Positions 16,484 to 55,584 of a stretch of 64,000 nt of DNA are shown piece by piece. The notes beneath the pieces were generated by a model. It did no database searches, was not told the DNA's origin, and worked only from the letters and a program-made list of their open reading frames with translations. The translations under genes and the position numbers were made by a program. Position 1 is the first letter of the stretch; every line of letters starts with the position of its first letter. The stretch is from Fidelibacterota bacterium (GTDB lineage: Bacteria; Pseudomonadota; Alphaproteobacteria; Rhodospirillales; Rhodospirillaceae): the NCBI GenBank assembly GCA_947475895.1, contig CANJMF010000011.1:1-64000 (forward strand), written 5' to 3'.

Positions 16484-17606
16484 TTAATCCAACAGCACAT
16501 CGCCGCCGGTTTTGATGCGGGCTGCCAACGATGCGGCCATGAACTTGTCGAGGTCGCCGTTGAGAACGCCCGCTGTGTCGGAGGTTTCGTATTCCGTGCG
16601 CAGGTCCTTCACAAGCTGATAGGGCTGCAACACGTAGGAGCGGATTTGGTGGCCCCAACCGATTTCGGTCTTGGCGGATTCCTGCTGTGCGATTTTCGCT
16701 TCGCGCTTTTCGAGTTCCAGCTCGTACAGCCGCGCGCGCAACATGTCCCAACACTTGGCGCGGTTTTGATGCTGCGAACGCTCTTGCTGACATTGCACGA
16801 CGATGTTGGTCGGAATGTGCGTGATGCGCACGGCGCTGTCTGTCTTGTTGACGTGCTGACCACCCGCACCCGATGAACGGTAGGTGTCGATACGGCAATC
16901 TTTCTCGTCGATATCGATTTCGATGGTGTCGTCGACGACCGGGTAAACCCAGACGGATGAAAAACTTGTGTGCCGGCGCGCATTTGAATCGAACGGCGAG
17001 ATGCGCACAAGGCGGTGCACACCGCTTTCAGTTTTCAGCCAGCCGTAAGCGTTGAGACCGGAGATGCGAAAGGTGACCGATTTGATGCCCGCACCTTCGC
17101 CGGCGCTTTCTTCCAGGTATTCGACCTTATAACCCTTGCTGTCGGCCCAGCGCGTGTACATGCGCGCGATAATCTCGGCCCAATCTTGAGCCTCCGTCCC
17201 GCCTTGGCCCGCGTGAATTTCGAGAAAGCAGTCGTTGGGATCGGCTTCACCCGACAGGAGGCTTTCCAATTCCAACCGCTTGGCGTGGGCAAGGACGCCG
17301 CCGATGAGCTTCAAAGCGTCCTGATAGGTCGCCTCATCGCCTTCTTCGTCGGAGAGCTGCGCCAAGGTGATGGCGTCGTCCACGTCGCGCTCCATTTTAC
17401 GCGCAGTGGAGATAGCCGACTCAAGCTGCGTACGTTCGCGCATAAGCTTTTGCGCGTCGGACGGCTTATTCCAGAGATTGGGGTCTTCAGCCTTGGCGTT
17501 TAATTCATCAAGGCGTAGCAGCGCGCGATCCCAGTCAAAGATGCCTCCGGAGCAAAGCGAGGGAGCGTTTGATTTCGGCAACCTTGGATTCGATTTCTGC
17601 GCGCAT
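16484..17606 (-). CDS. prfB: Peptide chain release factor 2, with programmed +1 frameshift
   Basis: RF2 reads UGA and UAA stops and triggers peptide release. The GGQ loop is [18 protein letters not shown], and the codon-recognition region has [14 protein letters not shown]. The frame ends at 16484, but the true start is the ATG at 17606. Codons 1-23 ([15 protein letters not shown]...RRHL) end in an in-frame TGA at 17537-17535, inside CTTTGAC, preceded by CGGAGG as internal Shine-Dalgarno. This is the classic autoregulatory frameshift site; ribosomes shift +1 and continue as [13 protein letters not shown]. The full product is about 373 residues, normal length. mrcA lies upstream in most relatives; here a PEP-CTERM gene intervenes. 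Confidence 0.95.
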
Positions 17607-17788
17607 GGTTTATTCCATTGATCAAAAAGAACTCGGTGTAGATGTATGTAAAATTCCGCCTGTTCGCAATGCCGAGAAATCCGATTACGTGCATTTAAGA
17701 CCGCTGCCCTCAGTGATACGCGCAGGCGAATCTTACACCCCTTTTCCCCAGCACCTCACAAACCCCTGAAATCCACCAACATCAGCAA

Positions 17789-17805
17789 GTGGCGCGCTTC
17801 TTGCT
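17789..17805 (+). promoter_or_regulatory. Sigma-54 (-24/-12) promoter of the PEP-CTERM gene
   Basis: GTGGCGCGCTTCTTGCT has the invariant GG at 17791-17792 and GC at 17803-17804, exactly 10 bases apart, and matches the TGGCAC-N5-TTGC consensus at all but one of the key bases. Transcription would start near 17816, about 50 bases before the ATG at 17869. PEP-CTERM genes are known to be controlled by RpoN with the PrsK/PrsR two-component system, which makes the match more credible. Confidence 0.7.
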
Positions 17806-17868
17806 ACTAATGGGAGACGGACAAAGTCCCCCAGACAAGATGTCCAAGGATAAGAAGGAAAATTGAGA

Positions 17869-18567
17869 ATGTTTCGGAAATCAATCATGGCGGCGAGCGC
17901 CGTCGTCGCGTTGTGGGGAGCCTCTGCAAGTATTGCGTCGGCGGCCCCGGTTTTGGGCAGCAATGTCGAGTTAGCACTTTTTACAAGCGTCATCGGCAGC
18001 ACCAGCGGCTGGACGTATAGCAACCAAGCGGTATCGGCCTTTAGCCTCAACGGCACCGCGACCCTCGTAAAGCGCGATAGTGGTTTCGCGAACAGCTTTG
18101 GTTACGCGCGCACGAACCACACGGGCCTGACGACGATCTTCAGCAGCAGCGCAGCCGTCGGCAGCACGATGGCCGTGTCGGGTTACAGCCCTTCGTTCGT
18201 CTTCTATGCGTCGGCCGACGCCGGGAGCCCGATATTCGACAACAACACGCAGTTCTCAGACACCACCGTCGGGTTAGGCGGTTTGCTGGGATTCTTCCAG
18301 GGCGATTTAGACATCTTTCACAACGCCGCCACGAACCGTTGGGCGTTCTTTTATGACGACGGCGGCGGAGCCGGCCTGGGTGACGACAATGACTATAACG
18401 ACCTTGTCGTGACATTTAACGAAGCGGTTTCACCGCCCACGTCAACACCAGTCCCGGAACCCGCATCGCTGACTCTTCTGGGAATGGCGCTTGTGACATT
18501 CGCAGTTTTGCGGCGCCGCGTTAGTGGAGCAAAGTCCGTTTCTAACAGAACGAGACCGGCGCTCTGA
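17869..18567 (+). CDS. PEP-CTERM sorting-domain secreted protein with DUF4114-like end
   Basis: A 232-residue exported protein. It has a Sec signal peptide (about residues 1-26, ending ASIASAAP), a Ser/Asn/Gly-rich body, a DUF4114-like acidic motif DDNDYNDLVVTF (about 175-186), and a PEP-CTERM tripartite signal: VPEPASLTLLGM, a hydrophobic stretch, then RRR. Exosortase would recognise this signal. A 15-residue tail after the arginines is longer than usual. I start it at the ATG at 17869, 8-9 bases after AGGAA, rather than the TTG at 17863. No exosortase gene is in the window. PEP-CTERM proteins usually go to the envelope or extracellular matrix. Confidence 0.88.
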   Translation: MFRKSIMAASAVVALWGASASIASAAPVLGSNVELALFTSVIGSTSGWTYSNQAVSAFSLNGTATLVKRDSGFANSFGYARTNHTGLTTIFSSSAAVGSTMAVSGYSPSFVFYASADAGSPIFDNNTQFSDTTVGLGGLLGFFQGDLDIFHNAATNRWAFFYDDGGGAGLGDDNDYNDLVVTFNEAVSPPTSTPVPEPASLTLLGMALVTFAVLRRRVSGAKSVSNRTRPAL

Positions 18568-18623
18568 CCCAAAAGGAGTCGCATCTTCGGACGGAGGTGC
18601 TTTAACGCCAGGCGAACGCAAAG

Positions 18624-18657
18624 AAAACGGCGGCTCCTTTAGAGGGGCCGCCGTTTT
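18624..18657. terminator. Bidirectional rho-independent terminator
   Basis: A 14-bp stem (18624-18637 with 18644-18657, one T-G wobble) with a 6-base loop and A/T runs on both sides (AAAA before, TTTT after). It lies between the PEP-CTERM gene and the convergent mrcA gene, so it can end both transcripts. Confidence 0.9.
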
Positions 18658-18671
18658 CGTTTATGCGAGGA

Positions 18672-21200
18672 CTAGTAGAGTCCGCCGGCGCTGGGTGCGT
18701 TAGGCGTGTTGCCGCCTTCGGACGGATCGGACTGATCCATGATCGTCACTTGCGTATCGGGTGACGTGCCTTCCTTGAAGGCTTCCAGGATCACTTTGGA
18801 ATCCCCCGGCGCGGCGGGGCGGCCGGTGTCGTGATTGACGCGCACGAGGCTGACACCCGGCGGCACGCGGAACGGCGTGGCGGGTTTTCCTTTGAGCGCC
18901 GCGATCATGAAATCGCGAAAGATCGGTGCTGCCACCGTGGCGCCCTGCTCGTGCAGACCAAGTGTGCGCGGCTCGTCGAAGCCCACGAACACGCCGGCCA
19001 CGAGATCGGGCGAGAAGCCCATGAACCACACATCGTTGACGTCGCTGGAGGTTCCGGTTTTGCCGGCGATGGGTTTGCCGACAGCGCGCACGGATACGCC
19101 GGTGCCGCGCTCGACCACGCCCTCCATCATGTGCACGACTTGATAGATGCTGGCGGGATTGGCCAGTTGCTCGCGCGTGTCAGGCAGTTGCGGGGGACCT
19201 TGGCCGTTCCAGGCGTCGGCCTTGCAGGTGTCGCAGGGGCGCGCGTCCTGGCGGAAAATGGTTACGCCGTTACGATCCTGTACGCGGTCGATGAGCGTCG
19301 GTGACAACTTCCGGCCGCCGTTGACGAGTTCCGCGTAGGCCGCTGTGAACCGCATCACGTTGGTGACTTCGGCGCCGAGAGAGTTGGCGAGGTTGGTCGG
19401 CATTTTGTCGACCACACCGAACTTCTCGGCCAGCGCGCCGATCTTATCCATGCCCACCGCTTGCGCGATGCGGACGGTGATGAGGTTGAGCGATTTCTCG
19501 AGCCCGATGCGGACGGTGGTGCGGCCCATGAATTCGCCGGTCTCGTAATTCTTTGGCTTCCACTTGGGGAGGCCCGGACCTTGATCCATGACGAAGGGCG
19601 CATCGAGCACCAGTGTCGACGGCGTGAAGCCGGCTTCCATGGCCGCGAGATAAACGAACGGTTTGAACGCCGAACCCGGTTGGCGCAACGCTTGCGTCGC
19701 GCGATTGAATTGCGATCCGGCGTAAGAGAAGCCGCCGTCCATGGCGAGGATGCGGCCGGTATGCGGATCTAAGGCCACGGCCGCGCCTTGGATCTGCGGG
19801 ATTTGGCGCAGAGCGAACGTGCCCTCGGGGAAGGCAACGCCTTCGCTGTTGGCTTTGAGGGCTTCGACGATGACGACGTCGCCCACGTGCAGCACTTGCG
19901 TGGCGGCCGCGACAGCCGCGCCGACAGCTTGGTCAGGAAGCCATTGGCGCGCCCACTTGAGTTCGCTTAACGAAATGGTGCCGGTGGTGCCGCTGCGCAG
20001 CGTGATGACGGCTTTATCGGCAGCGACCGCTTGCACGGCGGCAAGCTGCCAGGTGTCGAGCAAGCCCGCTGGATTTTGAACCTGCGTAAATTGCGAGGCC
20101 GCATTGGCGCCCGACAATTTGGTGACGGGGCCGCGATACCCATGGCGGCGATCATAAGAAATCAAACCGTCGCGCAAGGCTTTATTGGCGTATTTCTGAA
20201 AGGTCGGGTCGAGGGACGTGCGCACCGACAAGCCGCCTTTATAGAGCGCGGTCTCGCCGAACTTTTGCGCCAACTCGCGGCGGACGTTTTCAGCGAAGTA
20301 ATCGCCTTCGGCCACCACTTCGGTTTCATCGCGATTGCGCACCGTGATCGGCTCGGCGCGCGCGGCTTTGGCTTCAGCGGACGTGATGAGGTTATCGTCC
20401 GCCATGCGGCCGATGACGTAATCGCGGCGGTCGCGGGCTTCTTCCGGACGGCGTGTGGGGTTGTAGTTGTTGGGCGCTTTGGCGAGGCCGGCCAGGAAGG
20501 CAGCTTCGGACACCGTCAGCTCGTTGAGCGACTTGTTGAAGTAATTCATGGACGCGGCGGCGACACCGTAGGCGCCGAAGCCGAGATACTGCTGGTTTAG
20601 ATAAAGTTCGAGAATGTGGTCTTTGGTGAAGGCGCGCTCGATGCGCAAAGACAAGATCGCTTCGCGGATTTTACGATCGATGCTGTATTCGCGCGTACCG
20701 CCCAAAAGGAAGTTCTGCGCCACCTGCTGCGTGATGGTGGAAGCGCCTTTGATGCGCTTGTCGCTGCCGGTGGCTTTCTCGAACACGGCGATGGTGGAGG
20801 CGCGCATGAGGCCGACGACATCGATACCGGGGTGTTCGTAGAAGCGCTGGTCTTCGGACGCGACGAAGGCGTCGATGACGCGCTTGGGGATCGCCTTGAT
20901 GGGAACGAACACGCGCCCTTCGATGGCGTACTCGGTGATCAGGCGTCCGTCGCCGGCGTAGACCCGCGTCATCACCGGCGGATCGTAGGTGGCCAGTTGG
21001 TGATAATCGGGAAGACCGCGACTGAAGTGATAGAAAACGAAAACCAGTCCAGCGCCGCCCAGGAAAACGGCCACCATGACGGCGGCAAAGCCAACCATGA
21101 GCCAGGTCTTCAGCGCATCGCCCCGGATGGATTTGGGCTTAAGCCGCGCCGGCTTCTTGGCCGATGGAGAAATGGGGGGGTTGGCAGCGCTCGGTTCCAT
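18672..21200 (-). CDS. mrcA: Penicillin-binding protein 1A (bifunctional peptidoglycan synthase)
   Basis: An 842-residue class A PBP that polymerises glycan strands and crosslinks peptides in the periplasm. It has a short cytoplasmic N-terminus, one membrane anchor (about residues 32-57), a GT51 transglycosylase domain with FVASEDQRFYEHPG (catalytic Glu, about 110-124), an OB-like insert, and a transpeptidase domain with the SxxK serine in RQPGSAFKPF (about 510) and KTGTSS (about 725). The start ATG at 21200 gives MEPSAANPPIS. It follows the amidase gene by 75 bases on the same strand, a conserved order in alphaproteobacteria. Confidence 0.95.
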   Translation of the reverse strand: MEPSAANPPISPSAKKPARLKPKSIRGDALKTWLMVGFAAVMVAVFLGGAGLVFVFYHFSRGLPDYHQLATYDPPVMTRVYAGDGRLITEYAIEGRVFVPIKAIPKRVIDAFVASEDQRFYEHPGIDVVGLMRASTIAVFEKATGSDKRIKGASTITQQVAQNFLLGGTREYSIDRKIREAILSLRIERAFTKDHILELYLNQQYLGFGAYGVAAASMNYFNKSLNELTVSEAAFLAGLAKAPNNYNPTRRPEEARDRRDYVIGRMADDNLITSAEAKAARAEPITVRNRDETEVVAEGDYFAENVRRELAQKFGETALYKGGLSVRTSLDPTFQKYANKALRDGLISYDRRHGYRGPVTKLSGANAASQFTQVQNPAGLLDTWQLAAVQAVAADKAVITLRSGTTGTISLSELKWARQWLPDQAVGAAVAAATQVLHVGDVVIVEALKANSEGVAFPEGTFALRQIPQIQGAAVALDPHTGRILAMDGGFSYAGSQFNRATQALRQPGSAFKPFVYLAAMEAGFTPSTLVLDAPFVMDQGPGLPKWKPKNYETGEFMGRTTVRIGLEKSLNLITVRIAQAVGMDKIGALAEKFGVVDKMPTNLANSLGAEVTNVMRFTAAYAELVNGGRKLSPTLIDRVQDRNGVTIFRQDARPCDTCKADAWNGQGPPQLPDTREQLANPASIYQVVHMMEGVVERGTGVSVRAVGKPIAGKTGTSSDVNDVWFMGFSPDLVAGVFVGFDEPRTLGLHEQGATVAAPIFRDFMIAALKGKPATPFRVPPGVSLVRVNHDTGRPAAPGDSKVILEAFKEGTSPDTQVTIMDQSDPSEGGNTPNAPSAGGLY

Positions 21201-31391: not shown

Positions 31392-32669
31392 TTACCGGAT
31401 CAGATCGCGCGCCGCTTGCGTCATTTCGTCGGCGGTCTGAACGACTTTCGCCGAACTTGAATACGCACGCTGCGCGATGATCATTTTCGAGAACTGATCG
31501 GCAAGATCGACGTTGGAGGCTTCCAACGCGCCCACGACGAATTGCGTGGCGCCGGCATTTTTCTGTAGACCCTTAAGATCAAGATCGCCCGCATCGCGGG
31601 TTTGCTCAAAGATGTTGCCCGGCTTGGCGTCGAGATTGTTGTTGGCGTCGAAGGTCGCCACCGGCAGCTTGTAGAGATTGCGCACTTCGCCATTGGAATA
31701 GCTGCCGATCAGGACGCCCTGATCGTTGAAGTACGTATTGTTCAAGCGGCCTTCGAGATAGCCGTCCTGATCGATATTTTGAACCGTAAGGTCGCCGCTC
31801 TCACCCAGTTGCGTCATCTTGCTTAGGTCGAGCGTGACGTATTGCGCGCCGGAATAATCGTTGATGAGCGCGCTGATCTGACCGCCGGCCGGTTCGATAA
31901 GGTTGCCGAGACCGTCGAACGAGACGTTCGGCGGATCGAAATCCACGGTGACGGGATTGTTGGCGCTGTCGATGCTGGACATCTGCAGTGTGAATCCGGG
32001 CGTGCCGTCGGTGTTGCGCGTGAAGCCGACGCTGAGCGTGCGCGTGGCACCCTCTTGATCGACAAACGGCAGGCCGACCGTTTGCAGGCCCTTGCTGCTG
32101 TCCAACGAAAGATTGCCTTGGAGCTTAATGTTGGTGGTGGCTTTCGAAGGCACGACCGAGTTGTTGTTGAACATGATCGGCGTCAACGAGCTGAGCGTGT
32201 TGGTTTCGCTAATTTCTCCGTTTTCGTCCGCGGCCCAACCGTAGACGTAATTGCCGTTGGCGGTGGTCATCAACGTGCCGGAATCATTCACGCCATTACC
32301 GTCGGTGTCGACACCGAGGTCGATGGATTTGCCGAACATGGCGCCATCGCGCGTGTACTGCCAGCGGCTGCTGCCGTCGGTGGCGGAATTGGTGACCATA
32401 AAGCCGCGGCCGTTCAACGCCATATCGAAAGCACGACCGGTGGTCGTGATCTGACCCTGGTTATCGACTTGGCGGAAATCGAAGGTATTGACCGTGAAGA
32501 AATTTTTGGCGGGCGGCGTGATGTGATTGAGCAACGTCTCGAAGTGCGTGTCTTGGCGCTTGTAGGCAGTGGTGTTCACGTTCGCGATGTTCGTCGAGAT
32601 GTTCGACAAAAATTGCGCCTGCGAGTTCATCGCTTGAACCGCGGTGTTGAAAATGCCCTGCAAACTCAT
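31392..32669 (-). CDS. flgE: Flagellar hook protein FlgE (orphan locus)
   Basis: A 425-residue axial protein. The N-terminal rod/hook motif LSNISTNIANVNTTAYKRQD (about residues 22-41) and the C-terminal GALEASNVDLADQFSKMI plus YSSSAKVVQTADEM are diagnostic of FlgE/FlgF/FlgG; the variable middle and total length fit FlgE best. I start it at the ATG at 32669 (MSLQGIFNTAV), because GGAGACG sits just upstream; a longer frame to 32720 is not needed. No other flagellar gene is in the window. A sigma-54 promoter is placed 76-92 bases upstream, as for hook genes in Caulobacter. Confidence 0.88.
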   Translation of the reverse strand: MSLQGIFNTAVQAMNSQAQFLSNISTNIANVNTTAYKRQDTHFETLLNHITPPAKNFFTVNTFDFRQVDNQGQITTTGRAFDMALNGRGFMVTNSATDGSSRWQYTRDGAMFGKSIDLGVDTDGNGVNDSGTLMTTANGNYVYGWAADENGEISETNTLSSLTPIMFNNNSVVPSKATTNIKLQGNLSLDSSKGLQTVGLPFVDQEGATRTLSVGFTRNTDGTPGFTLQMSSIDSANNPVTVDFDPPNVSFDGLGNLIEPAGGQISALINDYSGAQYVTLDLSKMTQLGESGDLTVQNIDQDGYLEGRLNNTYFNDQGVLIGSYSNGEVRNLYKLPVATFDANNNLDAKPGNIFEQTRDAGDLDLKGLQKNAGATQFVVGALEASNVDLADQFSKMIIAQRAYSSSAKVVQTADEMTQAARDLIR

Positions 32670-32744
32670 CGCACGTCTCCACTTCAAGGCCCCTGGAAAC
32701 GCGCACGGATCACCGTGCACGCACTATGGGCGTCAGTGAAGAGT

Positions 32745-32761
32745 TAGCAAGCCTCGTGCCA
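32745..32761 (-). promoter_or_regulatory. Sigma-54 (-24/-12) promoter of flgE
   Basis: The minus strand reads TGGCACGAGGCTTGCTA. This matches the full consensus TGGCACG-N4-TTGCW, with GG at 32760-32759 and GC at 32748-32747, 10 bases apart. Transcription would start near 32735, giving a leader of about 65 bases. Hook genes in several alphaproteobacteria are transcribed from such promoters with the activator FlbD. Confidence 0.85.
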
Positions 32762-54217: not shown

Positions 54218-54802
54218 TTATTTCTTCAAAGCCGCCACGATTTCCAGCGACTTCTCGACGTGCTCAACCGGCGTCACTTTATCGTCGGCCGAAGACAGCG
54301 TCGCGACGATCTTCGAATCAGGCGTGATCACGAAGGTCGTACGCTCGGTCGCGTTATGGTCGATTTCCTCGCCACGGCTGTCCTTCGCACCTTTCGGAAT
54401 ATCGCGATTGGTGAGGCTGAAGGACTTGGCGATCGCGCCCGTGGGATCCGATGCCACCGGGAACTTGCCGGCGCAGTAGGCTGGATCGGACGAGAACGCG
54501 TTCAAGCGCGCGATGCTATCTTGCGACACACCGATAATGGTGGTGTGCGCCGCGTCGAACTTATCTTTGTTCTCGGCGAACGTATGCGCTTCGATATTGC
54601 AGCCGCCGGTAAACGCCGACGGGTAGAAGTACACGACCACCGGACCTTTTTTCAGCGCGTCTTTCAACGAGAACTGAAATTCCTTTCCGGCGAGCGAGGC
54701 CTTCGTTGAGAAATCCGGAGCCTTTTCGCCTTGTTTAAGGGCGGCGACGGCCGGAAGTGCGAGGGCGCTCGACAATAGCGCAGCGACGAGTAAGCGTTTC
54801 AT
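54218..54802 (-). CDS. Exported peroxiredoxin (tandem copy 2, downstream)
   Basis: A 194-residue AhpC/TSA-type thiol peroxidase with a signal peptide (MKRLLVAALLSSALALPAVA). The active-site region is VVYFYPSAFTGGCNIEAHTF, with the peroxidatic Cys in TGGC; a second Cys in AYCAGKFPVAS may resolve it. The start is at the ATG at 54802, behind GGAGAGC. It is a close duplicate of the upstream gene, almost the same along the whole length. It probably removes peroxide in the periplasm. A hairpin (CGTTCCG/CGGAACG) lies between the copies. Confidence 0.9.
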   Translation of the reverse strand: MKRLLVAALLSSALALPAVAALKQGEKAPDFSTKASLAGKEFQFSLKDALKKGPVVVYFYPSAFTGGCNIEAHTFAENKDKFDAAHTTIIGVSQDSIARLNAFSSDPAYCAGKFPVASDPTGAIAKSFSLTNRDIPKGAKDSRGEEIDHNATERTTFVITPDSKIVATLSSADDKVTPVEHVEKSLEIVAALKK

Positions 54803-54851
54803 GTGCTCTCCTTCGATCATTGGGACGATCGTTCCGCGAACGGAACGTGTC

Positions 54852-55439
54852 TTACTTTTTCAGGTGCGAAGCAACTTCGAGCGACTTCTCGGCATGTTCG
54901 GTCGGGGTGACTTTATCGTCGGCCGAAGACAAAGTGGCGACGATCTTTGAGTCCTGTGCGATCACAAAGGTGGTGCGTTCGCTAACTTCAGCGTTCTCAA
55001 CTTCTTCACCCTTTGTGTTTTTAAAGCCGGCCGGCAGCTTGATGTTGTTCAGACCGAAGGACTTGGAGATTTCGCCGGTCGGGTCAGACGCCACCGGGAA
55101 CTTGCCCGCGCAATAGGCCGGATCGGACGAGAACGCGTTCAGGCGCGAAATGCTGTCCTTCGAAACACCGATGATCGTGGTGTGAGCGGCGGCGAACTTG
55201 TCCGCATTCTCGGCGAAGGTGTGCGCCTCGATATTGCAGCCGCCGGTGAAAGCCGCTGGGTAGAAGTACACAACGACGGGGCCTTTTTTCAGGGCGTCCT
55301 TTAGGGAGAAATTGAATTCCTTGCCGGCGAGCGAAGCTTTCGTGGAGAAATCCGGTGCCTTTTCGCCCTGCTTGAGGGCGGCAACAGCGGGAAGTGCAAT
55401 GGCGCTCGACAGCAGCGCGGCGACGATGAGGCGTTTCAC
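54852..55439 (-). CDS. Exported peroxiredoxin (tandem copy 1, upstream)
   Basis: A 195-residue periplasmic peroxiredoxin, the first of a tandem pair. It starts with GTG at 55439 behind GGAGAGAACATC (signal peptide VKRLIVAALLSSAIALPAVA). The catalytic stretch FYPAAFTGGCNIEAHTFAEN and AYCAGKFPVASDPTGEI match the second copy. The two differ mostly in a loop near residues 133-150 (LPAGFKNTKGEEV against IPKGAKDSRGEEI). The pair shares a single terminator, so they form an operon. tRNA-Val lies upstream with its own terminator. Confidence 0.9.
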   Translation of the reverse strand: MKRLIVAALLSSAIALPAVAALKQGEKAPDFSTKASLAGKEFNFSLKDALKKGPVVVYFYPAAFTGGCNIEAHTFAENADKFAAAHTTIIGVSKDSISRLNAFSSDPAYCAGKFPVASDPTGEISKSFGLNNIKLPAGFKNTKGEEVENAEVSERTTFVIAQDSKIVATLSSADDKVTPTEHAEKSLEVASHLKK

Positions 55440-55584
55440 GATGTTCTCTCCTTGGATGATGGGCCCGCTGAAGAGCAGGTTGGACATGAGTATAGTGATC
55501 TTACGGTATCGGAGAAGGCACAGCAGCCGTAGCAATGATCACGCCTGCTTGATGTGCTTTTTTGTAACAGCGACGGGTGGTTAA

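Follow-up and report, generated by a model that had tools for sequence, protein, structure and literature searches.

A PEP-CTERM gene with a sigma-54 promoter between mrcA and prfB, in a genome with PrsK and PrsR and no exosortase match

Why does a single PEP-CTERM gene with its own promoter lie between mrcA and prfB, and what becomes of its product in a genome where no exosortase was found? The window, the whole stretch of DNA analysed here, spans 64,000 bases (bases 1-64000 of contig 11). The source genome has 3,299,865 bases in 36 contigs and is rated 100% complete with 0.12% contamination. An earlier note on this DNA had placed a PEP-CTERM gene with a promoter and a terminator between the two conserved genes, and this core claim is confirmed. 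The gene, its parts and its neighbours are as follows.

16484..17606, minus strand: prfB (release factor 2), conserved neighbour (TIGR00020, 508.7 bits)
17869..18567, plus strand: PEP-CTERM protein gene, open reading frame from ATG 17869 to the stop at 18567, 232 aa
17869..17946, plus strand: predicted signal peptide, residues 1-26, recognized by eye (basic start, hydrophobic stretch, ASAA)
18448..18519, plus strand: PEP-CTERM sorting tag, residues 194-217, over the cut-off of both PF07589 and TIGR02595
18623..18658, no strand assigned: bidirectional terminator hairpin between the PEP-CTERM gene and mrcA (-34.5 kcal/mol, z -7.25)
18672..21200, minus strand: mrcA (PBP1A family), conserved neighbour (TIGR02074, 584.1 bits)

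The 232-aa protein has the features of the tag: a C-terminal PEP motif, a hydrophobic helix and a basic cluster. It scores 23.5 bits with PF07589 (cut-off 20.7) and 19.2 with TIGR02595 (cut-off 16), and its identity as a PEP-CTERM protein is thus upheld. A TTG at 17863 is a possible alternative start. In an AlphaFold2 model, a helix is predicted at residues 9-18, within the predicted signal peptide. The terminator had been called strong and bidirectional, which agrees with a stem of 16 pairs (one G-U) flanked by T-rich stretches on both strands; it can end transcription from both sides. A pattern-based terminator scan did not list 18623-18658 under its own rule. As for the gene order proposed around the site, prfB, mrcA and the amidase are identified by profile models, and rne by eye from its open reading frame. 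Within prfB (17534-17606, minus strand), ATG 17606 is followed by 23 codons and then an in-frame TGA in the context CGGAGGCATCTTTGAC, a programmed +1 frameshift of the kind usual for this release factor. Elsewhere in the window, at 54218-55535 (minus strand), are two adjacent open reading frames with near-identical starts, by eye secreted thioredoxin-fold proteins.

The insertion site was compared among relatives using the end of mrcA as the query. It matched 60 of 61 genomes, and the best 30 of these were made into loci. The mrcA end was read in 29 genomes other than that of the window; prfB is on the same stretch in 22 and not in reach in seven. A match to the PEP-CTERM gene was found in none of these 22 readable mrcA-prfB links, and the claim of an insertion into a conserved gene order therefore stands. 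prfB follows mrcA by ~95-185 bp in 16 of the 22 genomes, and the gap is wider in six, of which the three examined (G011, G013 and G020) contain other genes. Unrelated genes fill the mrcA-prfB gap in three relatives (loci L131, L140 and L141), and the gap is perhaps a recurrent insertion spot. The PEP-CTERM gene thus reads as an insertion specific to this lineage, in a gap that is mostly tight and now and then taken up by other genes.

Relatives of the protein that carry both tag and promoter were found in two genomes, G012 and G005. The G012 protein is 53% identical to that of the window, and its gene, located where a short contig ends, has a gene of LysR type (by eye) as its neighbour and is away from mrcA. 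The same protein as in G005, a congener of the window genome, is encoded by a record titled Candidatus Marinimicrobia (CAMDOZ010000011.1, L182), which is probably a mislabelled MAG.

Two upstream elements could control the window gene.

17790..17805, plus strand: -24/-12 sigma-54 promoter TGGCGCgcttcTTGCT (TGGCGC-N5-TTGCT), 63 bp before the ATG
17721..17737, plus strand: PrsR-type box CGCAGGCGAATCTTACA, corresponding to motif 1 of Haft 2006; 52 bp separate it from the -24 element downstream

The promoter TGGCGCgcttcTTGCT agrees with the consensus at 10 of 11 positions, a match with p 0.005 when 200 randomized copies of the upstream region serve as the control. The pattern TGGCRC-N5-TTGCW is not enriched genome-wide, with 13 exact sites against 14 for a reversed control. 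PF07589 gives six tags over the cut-off in the source genome and two weaker matches (E 0.054 and E 0.97). The six and the E 0.054 match are counted here as seven PEP-CTERM genes, and the E 0.97 match is left out. A site matching at least 10 of 11 positions within 200 bp of the start is found at 6/7 of these genes (five of the six over the Pfam cut-off, and the weak one); the exception lies on contig 5. Other genes have such a site in 5/229 cases in the examined stretches (Fisher p 1.4e-8). As a class, the -24/-12 promoter is real. The sigma-54 promoter of the window gene and the existence of further PEP-CTERM genes with -24/-12 sites, both put forward in the earlier note, are borne out by this comparison.

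The box was defined by a free motif search over 40 regions upstream of -24/-12 sites in the source genome and its relatives. A palindromic PrsR box (TGTAAA-N5-TTTACA) had fitted few sites, and the free motif was preferred. This motif, TGTCGGaAttcTTTACA, has a log-likelihood ratio of 227, against 48-51 in five shuffled sets. It is in agreement with Haft 2006, whose motif 1 is 17 nt long with TTTACA at its end, lies 32-92 nt before the -24/-12 element and was proposed as an activator site (PMC1569441). The window box CGCAGGCGAATCTTACA is weak, scoring 9.3 of 25.6, the lowest of six PEP-CTERM boxes, with a matrix built without CGCAGGCGAATCTTACA to which the other five had contributed.

For specificity, 288 kb were scanned, made up of the window, contigs 21 and 23, and the surroundings of rpoN and of the remaining PEP-CTERM genes. 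These hold 19 sites matching at least 10 of 11 positions. The box score is at least 9 at seven of them, and the next is 3.6. Six of the seven precede PEP-CTERM genes, including the window gene, and one lies in an island remnant on contig 23. As the 288 kb were chosen around PEP-CTERM genes, this shows specificity and is no genome-wide count. The contig 23 site (L256:2217-2232, minus strand) has a box score of 9.4 and an 11/11 promoter, and is the sole such site without a PEP-CTERM gene in the 288 kb. It precedes an open reading frame that by eye resembles an ATPase of histidine-kinase type and that gave no convincing Pfam match. A perfect 11/11 -24/-12 site in the window, at 32746-32761 (minus strand), precedes a gene at 31392-32720 that is by eye a flagellar hook/basal-body protein; its box score is just 2.9, so another sigma-54 activator is likely there.

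Distances from box to promoter cluster near 41, 52, 63, 74, 85 and 95 bp. The period is 10.85 bp with a mean vector of 0.81 for 34 of the 40 regions (six without a convincing box omitted) and 0.68 for all 40; 0/2000 smooth random sets were as strongly periodic, whether 34 or 40 regions were used. Steps of 10.85 bp would fit an activator bound to one face of the helix and support the boxes as candidate activator sites. On this periodicity, the parts of the open-licence literature covered by a search gave nothing nearer than Haft 2006.

The regulators of such a system are present. The gene for RpoN is on contig 18. Contig 21 has, in order, a PEP-CTERM gene (plus strand), the TIGR03013 XrtA/PEP-CTERM glycosyltransferase (502 bits), PrsK (601 bits, cut-off 300), PrsR (635 bits, cut-off 502.6) and the start of PrsT. 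All three regulators invoked in the earlier note, RpoN, PrsK and PrsR, are therefore found in the source genome. The congener G012, deposited as the MAG Rhodospirillaceae bacterium SJ625, has the same gene order with a full PrsT. PrsK is over its cut-off in 15 genomes, all of which have an exosortase except two, the source genome and G020. PrsR is over its cut-off in 10 of 21 tagged genomes, searched at E <=1e-150.

An exosortase had also been predicted, and this part of the prediction failed in the assembly. PF09721 gave no match in the 3.30 Mb. TIGR02602, run over 99 genomes (98 relatives and the source genome), gave 18 over the cut-off and none in the source genome. TIGR04178, the core model shared with archaeosortases, gave none there at E <=10 among 14 genomes. 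As for the predicted exopolysaccharide cluster, the TIGR03013 glycosyltransferase is the sole part found; the XrtA-type FemAB, deacetylase and ATPase were not found, using a joined query of XrtA-island proteins from G012. The FemAB and ATPase matches in the source genome are 33-34% paralogues of a kind also present in other genomes, and the same query gives 51-67% in G030, G047 and G051. The absence of these three partners alone is not decisive, as G010 and G055 have an exosortase and also lack all three. The earlier note had tied its reading to an exosortase or rpoN gene; the exosortase is the half that was not found, and rpoN is present. The promoter claim is independent of the presence of an exosortase.

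Tags are found at E <=0.001 in 21 of 99 genomes, 10 with an exosortase over the cut-off and 11 without, the source genome included. Nine of the negative genomes remain besides the source genome and G020, six of them in more than 200 contigs, and no conclusion on exosortase loss is drawn from these nine. In a tree of mrcA (22 rows), G010 and G012, which both have an exosortase, are placed in separate clades, and G002, a close sister of G012 that is 90% complete, has no tag at E <=0.001; the PEP-CTERM system is thus patchy in the genus. A promoter site matching at least 10 of 11 positions precedes 28/46 testable genes in exosortase-negative genomes (the source genome included) and 12/15 in positive ones, for which 17 of 73 genes were examined. 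Promoters are somewhat rarer in the negative genomes, which would fit slow decay and is no test of it. The genome G024 (L039, L058, L072, L073 and L076), rated 99% complete, has 12 PEP-CTERM matches, -24/-12 sites at 7/12 of these genes and clear PrsR boxes; no exosortase, PrsK or PrsR was found there over the cut-off.

The operon on contig 21 carries what appears to be a deletion scar. prsT of the source genome covers just model positions 13-304 of 899 (38 of the 70 candidates were scored). It is not intact: contig 21 begins in an insertion element, by eye of the IS3 type, which interrupts prsT near residue 340 (numbered as in G012). The rest of prsT is absent from all 72 ends of the 36 contigs. 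Contigs end in the main type of this element with 10 left and 10 right ends, and in a close variant with one left and three right. As left and right ends are unequal, some flanks are missing from the data, which slightly weakens the case for exosortase loss; all 13 right-hand ends that were seen, of the element and the variant together, are without prsT. The window itself starts (bases 1-148, the start of contig 11) with the right end of the same element.

The flanks on contigs 21 and 23 share the 4-bp duplication CGCA, as a single insertion would leave. Of the ten left flanks, three have a duplication partner among the ten right ones, and ~0.4 would be expected by chance (an estimate). When the element is removed in silico, PrsT continues in an open frame into the C-terminal portion of a glycosyltransferase, which has weak matches to TIGR04063 and EpsE. 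The next gene is YdcF/ElyC-like, followed by an open reading frame, a regulator and sulfate-assimilation genes (by eye). In the congener G010 (L081), a similar YdcF/ElyC gene lies ~1.3 kb before xrtA; both are below the ElyC cut-off. The simplest order of events would be a deletion joining prsT to the glycosyltransferase, followed by insertion of the element.

A similar join is seen in G020, which belongs to another genus. From residue 424, ahead of the DNA-binding end, its PrsR no longer follows the related proteins and runs into a glycosyltransferase end that is 50% identical over 72 aa to that of the source genome. The join lies within one 721-kb contig, and G020 is also without an exosortase and without a PrsT over the cut-off. 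Tags with promoters are kept in both genomes, 6/7 in the source genome and 4/5 testable ones in G020. In G044, a similar glycosyltransferase is ~2.7 kb from prsR and the exosortase is ~20 kb beyond; given this spacing, xrtA may have lain outside the stretch that was deleted between prsT and the glycosyltransferase.

The part of the protein before the tag may have a sugar-binding fold.

18022..18435, plus strand: predicted beta-sandwich, LecB/PA-IIL-like (AlphaFold2 model, low confidence, pLDDT 60.4)

The model was computed from the window protein and four relatives (alignment A2, five rows). Top rows in Foldseek are LecB-type lectins, with a best E of 1.1e-3 and none <=0.001. VIA-align places 14 LecB-type rows at Z 7.2-8.0, three thrombocorticin rows at 6.3-6.5 and the next row at 4.8, where a Z below 8 can reflect a common arrangement. 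The predicted sandwich includes a DDNDYND loop at residues 172-178, in which D172, D173, D175, Y176 and D178 are invariant in all five A2 sequences; this loop may correspond to the calcium loop of LecB. The drop in Z after these rows and the conservation of the acidic loop tentatively favour a LecB-type calcium lectin fold. Alignment A2 compared with PDB sequences gave weak antibody matches only (E >=0.63). DUF4114, a domain found in LecB-type lectins and linked to exopolysaccharide binding (PMC9109919), was considered and set aside: it has no match in the window protein and E 0.42-0.69 in the G012 relative.

Taken together, the window gene probably belongs to an RpoN/PrsKR PEP-CTERM regulon of the ordinary kind, left stranded when the exosortase island was lost. 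The DNA itself shows the gene with its tag, promoter and box, the regulators, the junction of the fusion and the absence of the enzyme from the assembly, and the mechanism built on them would be as follows. The gene, inserted singly between mrcA and prfB and separated from mrcA by the hairpin at 18623-18658, would be transcribed by RpoN polymerase when PrsK/PrsR is active: PrsR would bind the box at 17721-17737, loop to polymerase at 17790-17805 and open the promoter. The product would be a Sec-exported, PEP-CTERM-tagged protein with a probably LecB-like, calcium-dependent sandwich that would stick to exopolysaccharide. A deletion would have joined prsT to the sequence for the C-terminal end of an EPS glycosyltransferase, with the IS3-type element now in the fusion, and the exosortase may have been lost in this deletion or a related one. 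With the tag still made and the enzyme missing, the C-terminal helix would keep the product in the inner membrane, or a different protease would trim it. That the PEP-CTERM frames are open in all seven genes would be unexpected long after exosortase loss and counts against this reading unless the stranding is recent. The weak box of the window gene and the low confidence of the structural model also count against it. If confirmed, the genome would be a natural knock-out that could show where PEP-CTERM proteins end up in the absence of an exosortase and whether the tag has a second handler.

The system may instead be complete, with its exosortase island merely unassembled or unbinned. This is somewhat unlikely, and it would account for the seven open tagged frames and for promoters intact at 6/7 of them. 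Other assemblies have the island in pieces: xrtA of G010 is on a 3.9-kb contig and FemAB, deacetylase and ATPase are absent from that genome, G081 has FemAB and no xrt, and G055 has an exosortase over the cut-off and none of the three partners in XrtA form. Further, 11 of 21 PEP-CTERM genomes lack an exosortase match, and 6/10 of those besides the source genome are in more than 200 contigs. The smallest contig of the source assembly has 3007 bases, so shorter ones may have been left out, and the genome may be a MAG. However, it is rated complete in its 36 contigs, no contig end carries the rest of prsT, the CGCA duplication matches, prsT and the glycosyltransferase join in frame, and the like join in G020 lies inside one contig.

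Two further accounts concern how the tag is handled. In the first, which is unlikely, lectin-like PEP-CTERM surface proteins of this family are useful without an exosortase and the sigma-54/PrsR regulon outlives repeated island loss; the tag would then simply anchor the protein in the membrane, or a different protease would cut it. In the second, the exosortase is too divergent for the models or has been replaced by an unrelated tag-processing protease. The persistence of tags and promoters in exosortase-negative genomes and the 12 PEP-CTERM matches of G024 agree with this; however, TIGR04178 at E <=10 is empty in 10 of 11 negative genomes, with one match at 0.75 in the other, and this second account is quite improbable. 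That the PEP-CTERM match and promoter arose by chance is extremely improbable, despite the weak box and a promoter pattern as common genome-wide as its reversed control, given a tag over two curated cut-offs, the relatives with tag and promoter in G012 and G005, and the contrast between PEP-CTERM and other genes, which rules out a chance promoter.

The closest known system is PEP-CTERM/EpsH (XrtA) with PrsK-PrsR-PrsT and RpoN (Haft 2006, PMC1569441). It shares with the source genome the tag on a single gene, the 17-bp box ending in TTTACA or nearly so, followed by a spacer and the -24/-12 element, and PrsK, PrsR and the TIGR03013 glycosyltransferase. Unlike that system, the source genome has a broken and fused prsT, its exosortase was not found, and the XrtA-type FemAB, deacetylase and ATPase are absent. 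Cases of incomplete systems have been described: according to Haft 2006, Chlorobium tepidum has two PEP-CTERM sequences and no EpsH (PMC1569441), and a paper on Ferrovum suggests that the entire PEP-CTERM system was possibly lost in two strains. Among the titles and opening lines of abstracts listed by searches of the open-licence literature, none describes a genome that has tags and regulators and is without an exosortase.

In floc-forming Aquincola and Zoogloea, pepA is described as a PEP-CTERM gene under RpoN and probably PrsK-PrsR, as here, with a product thought to hold exopolysaccharide (PMC9850573, PMC9012009). These strains have the PEP-CTERM/exosortase system according to PMC9850573, whereas no exosortase was found here, and the window protein scores 20.4 bits on the PepA model against a cut-off of 80. 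With LecB/PA-IIL lectins and DUF4114 the window protein would share the top fold matches of its model and the conserved DDNDYND loop; unlike these lectins, it has no sequence match over the cut-off and carries a PEP-CTERM tag. Tag, promoter and regulators place the window gene in a known class, of which it is a typical case. The unusual part is its setting: the sorting enzyme and its polysaccharide genes were not found, regulators and tags are kept, and a deletion scar marks the break in the operon.
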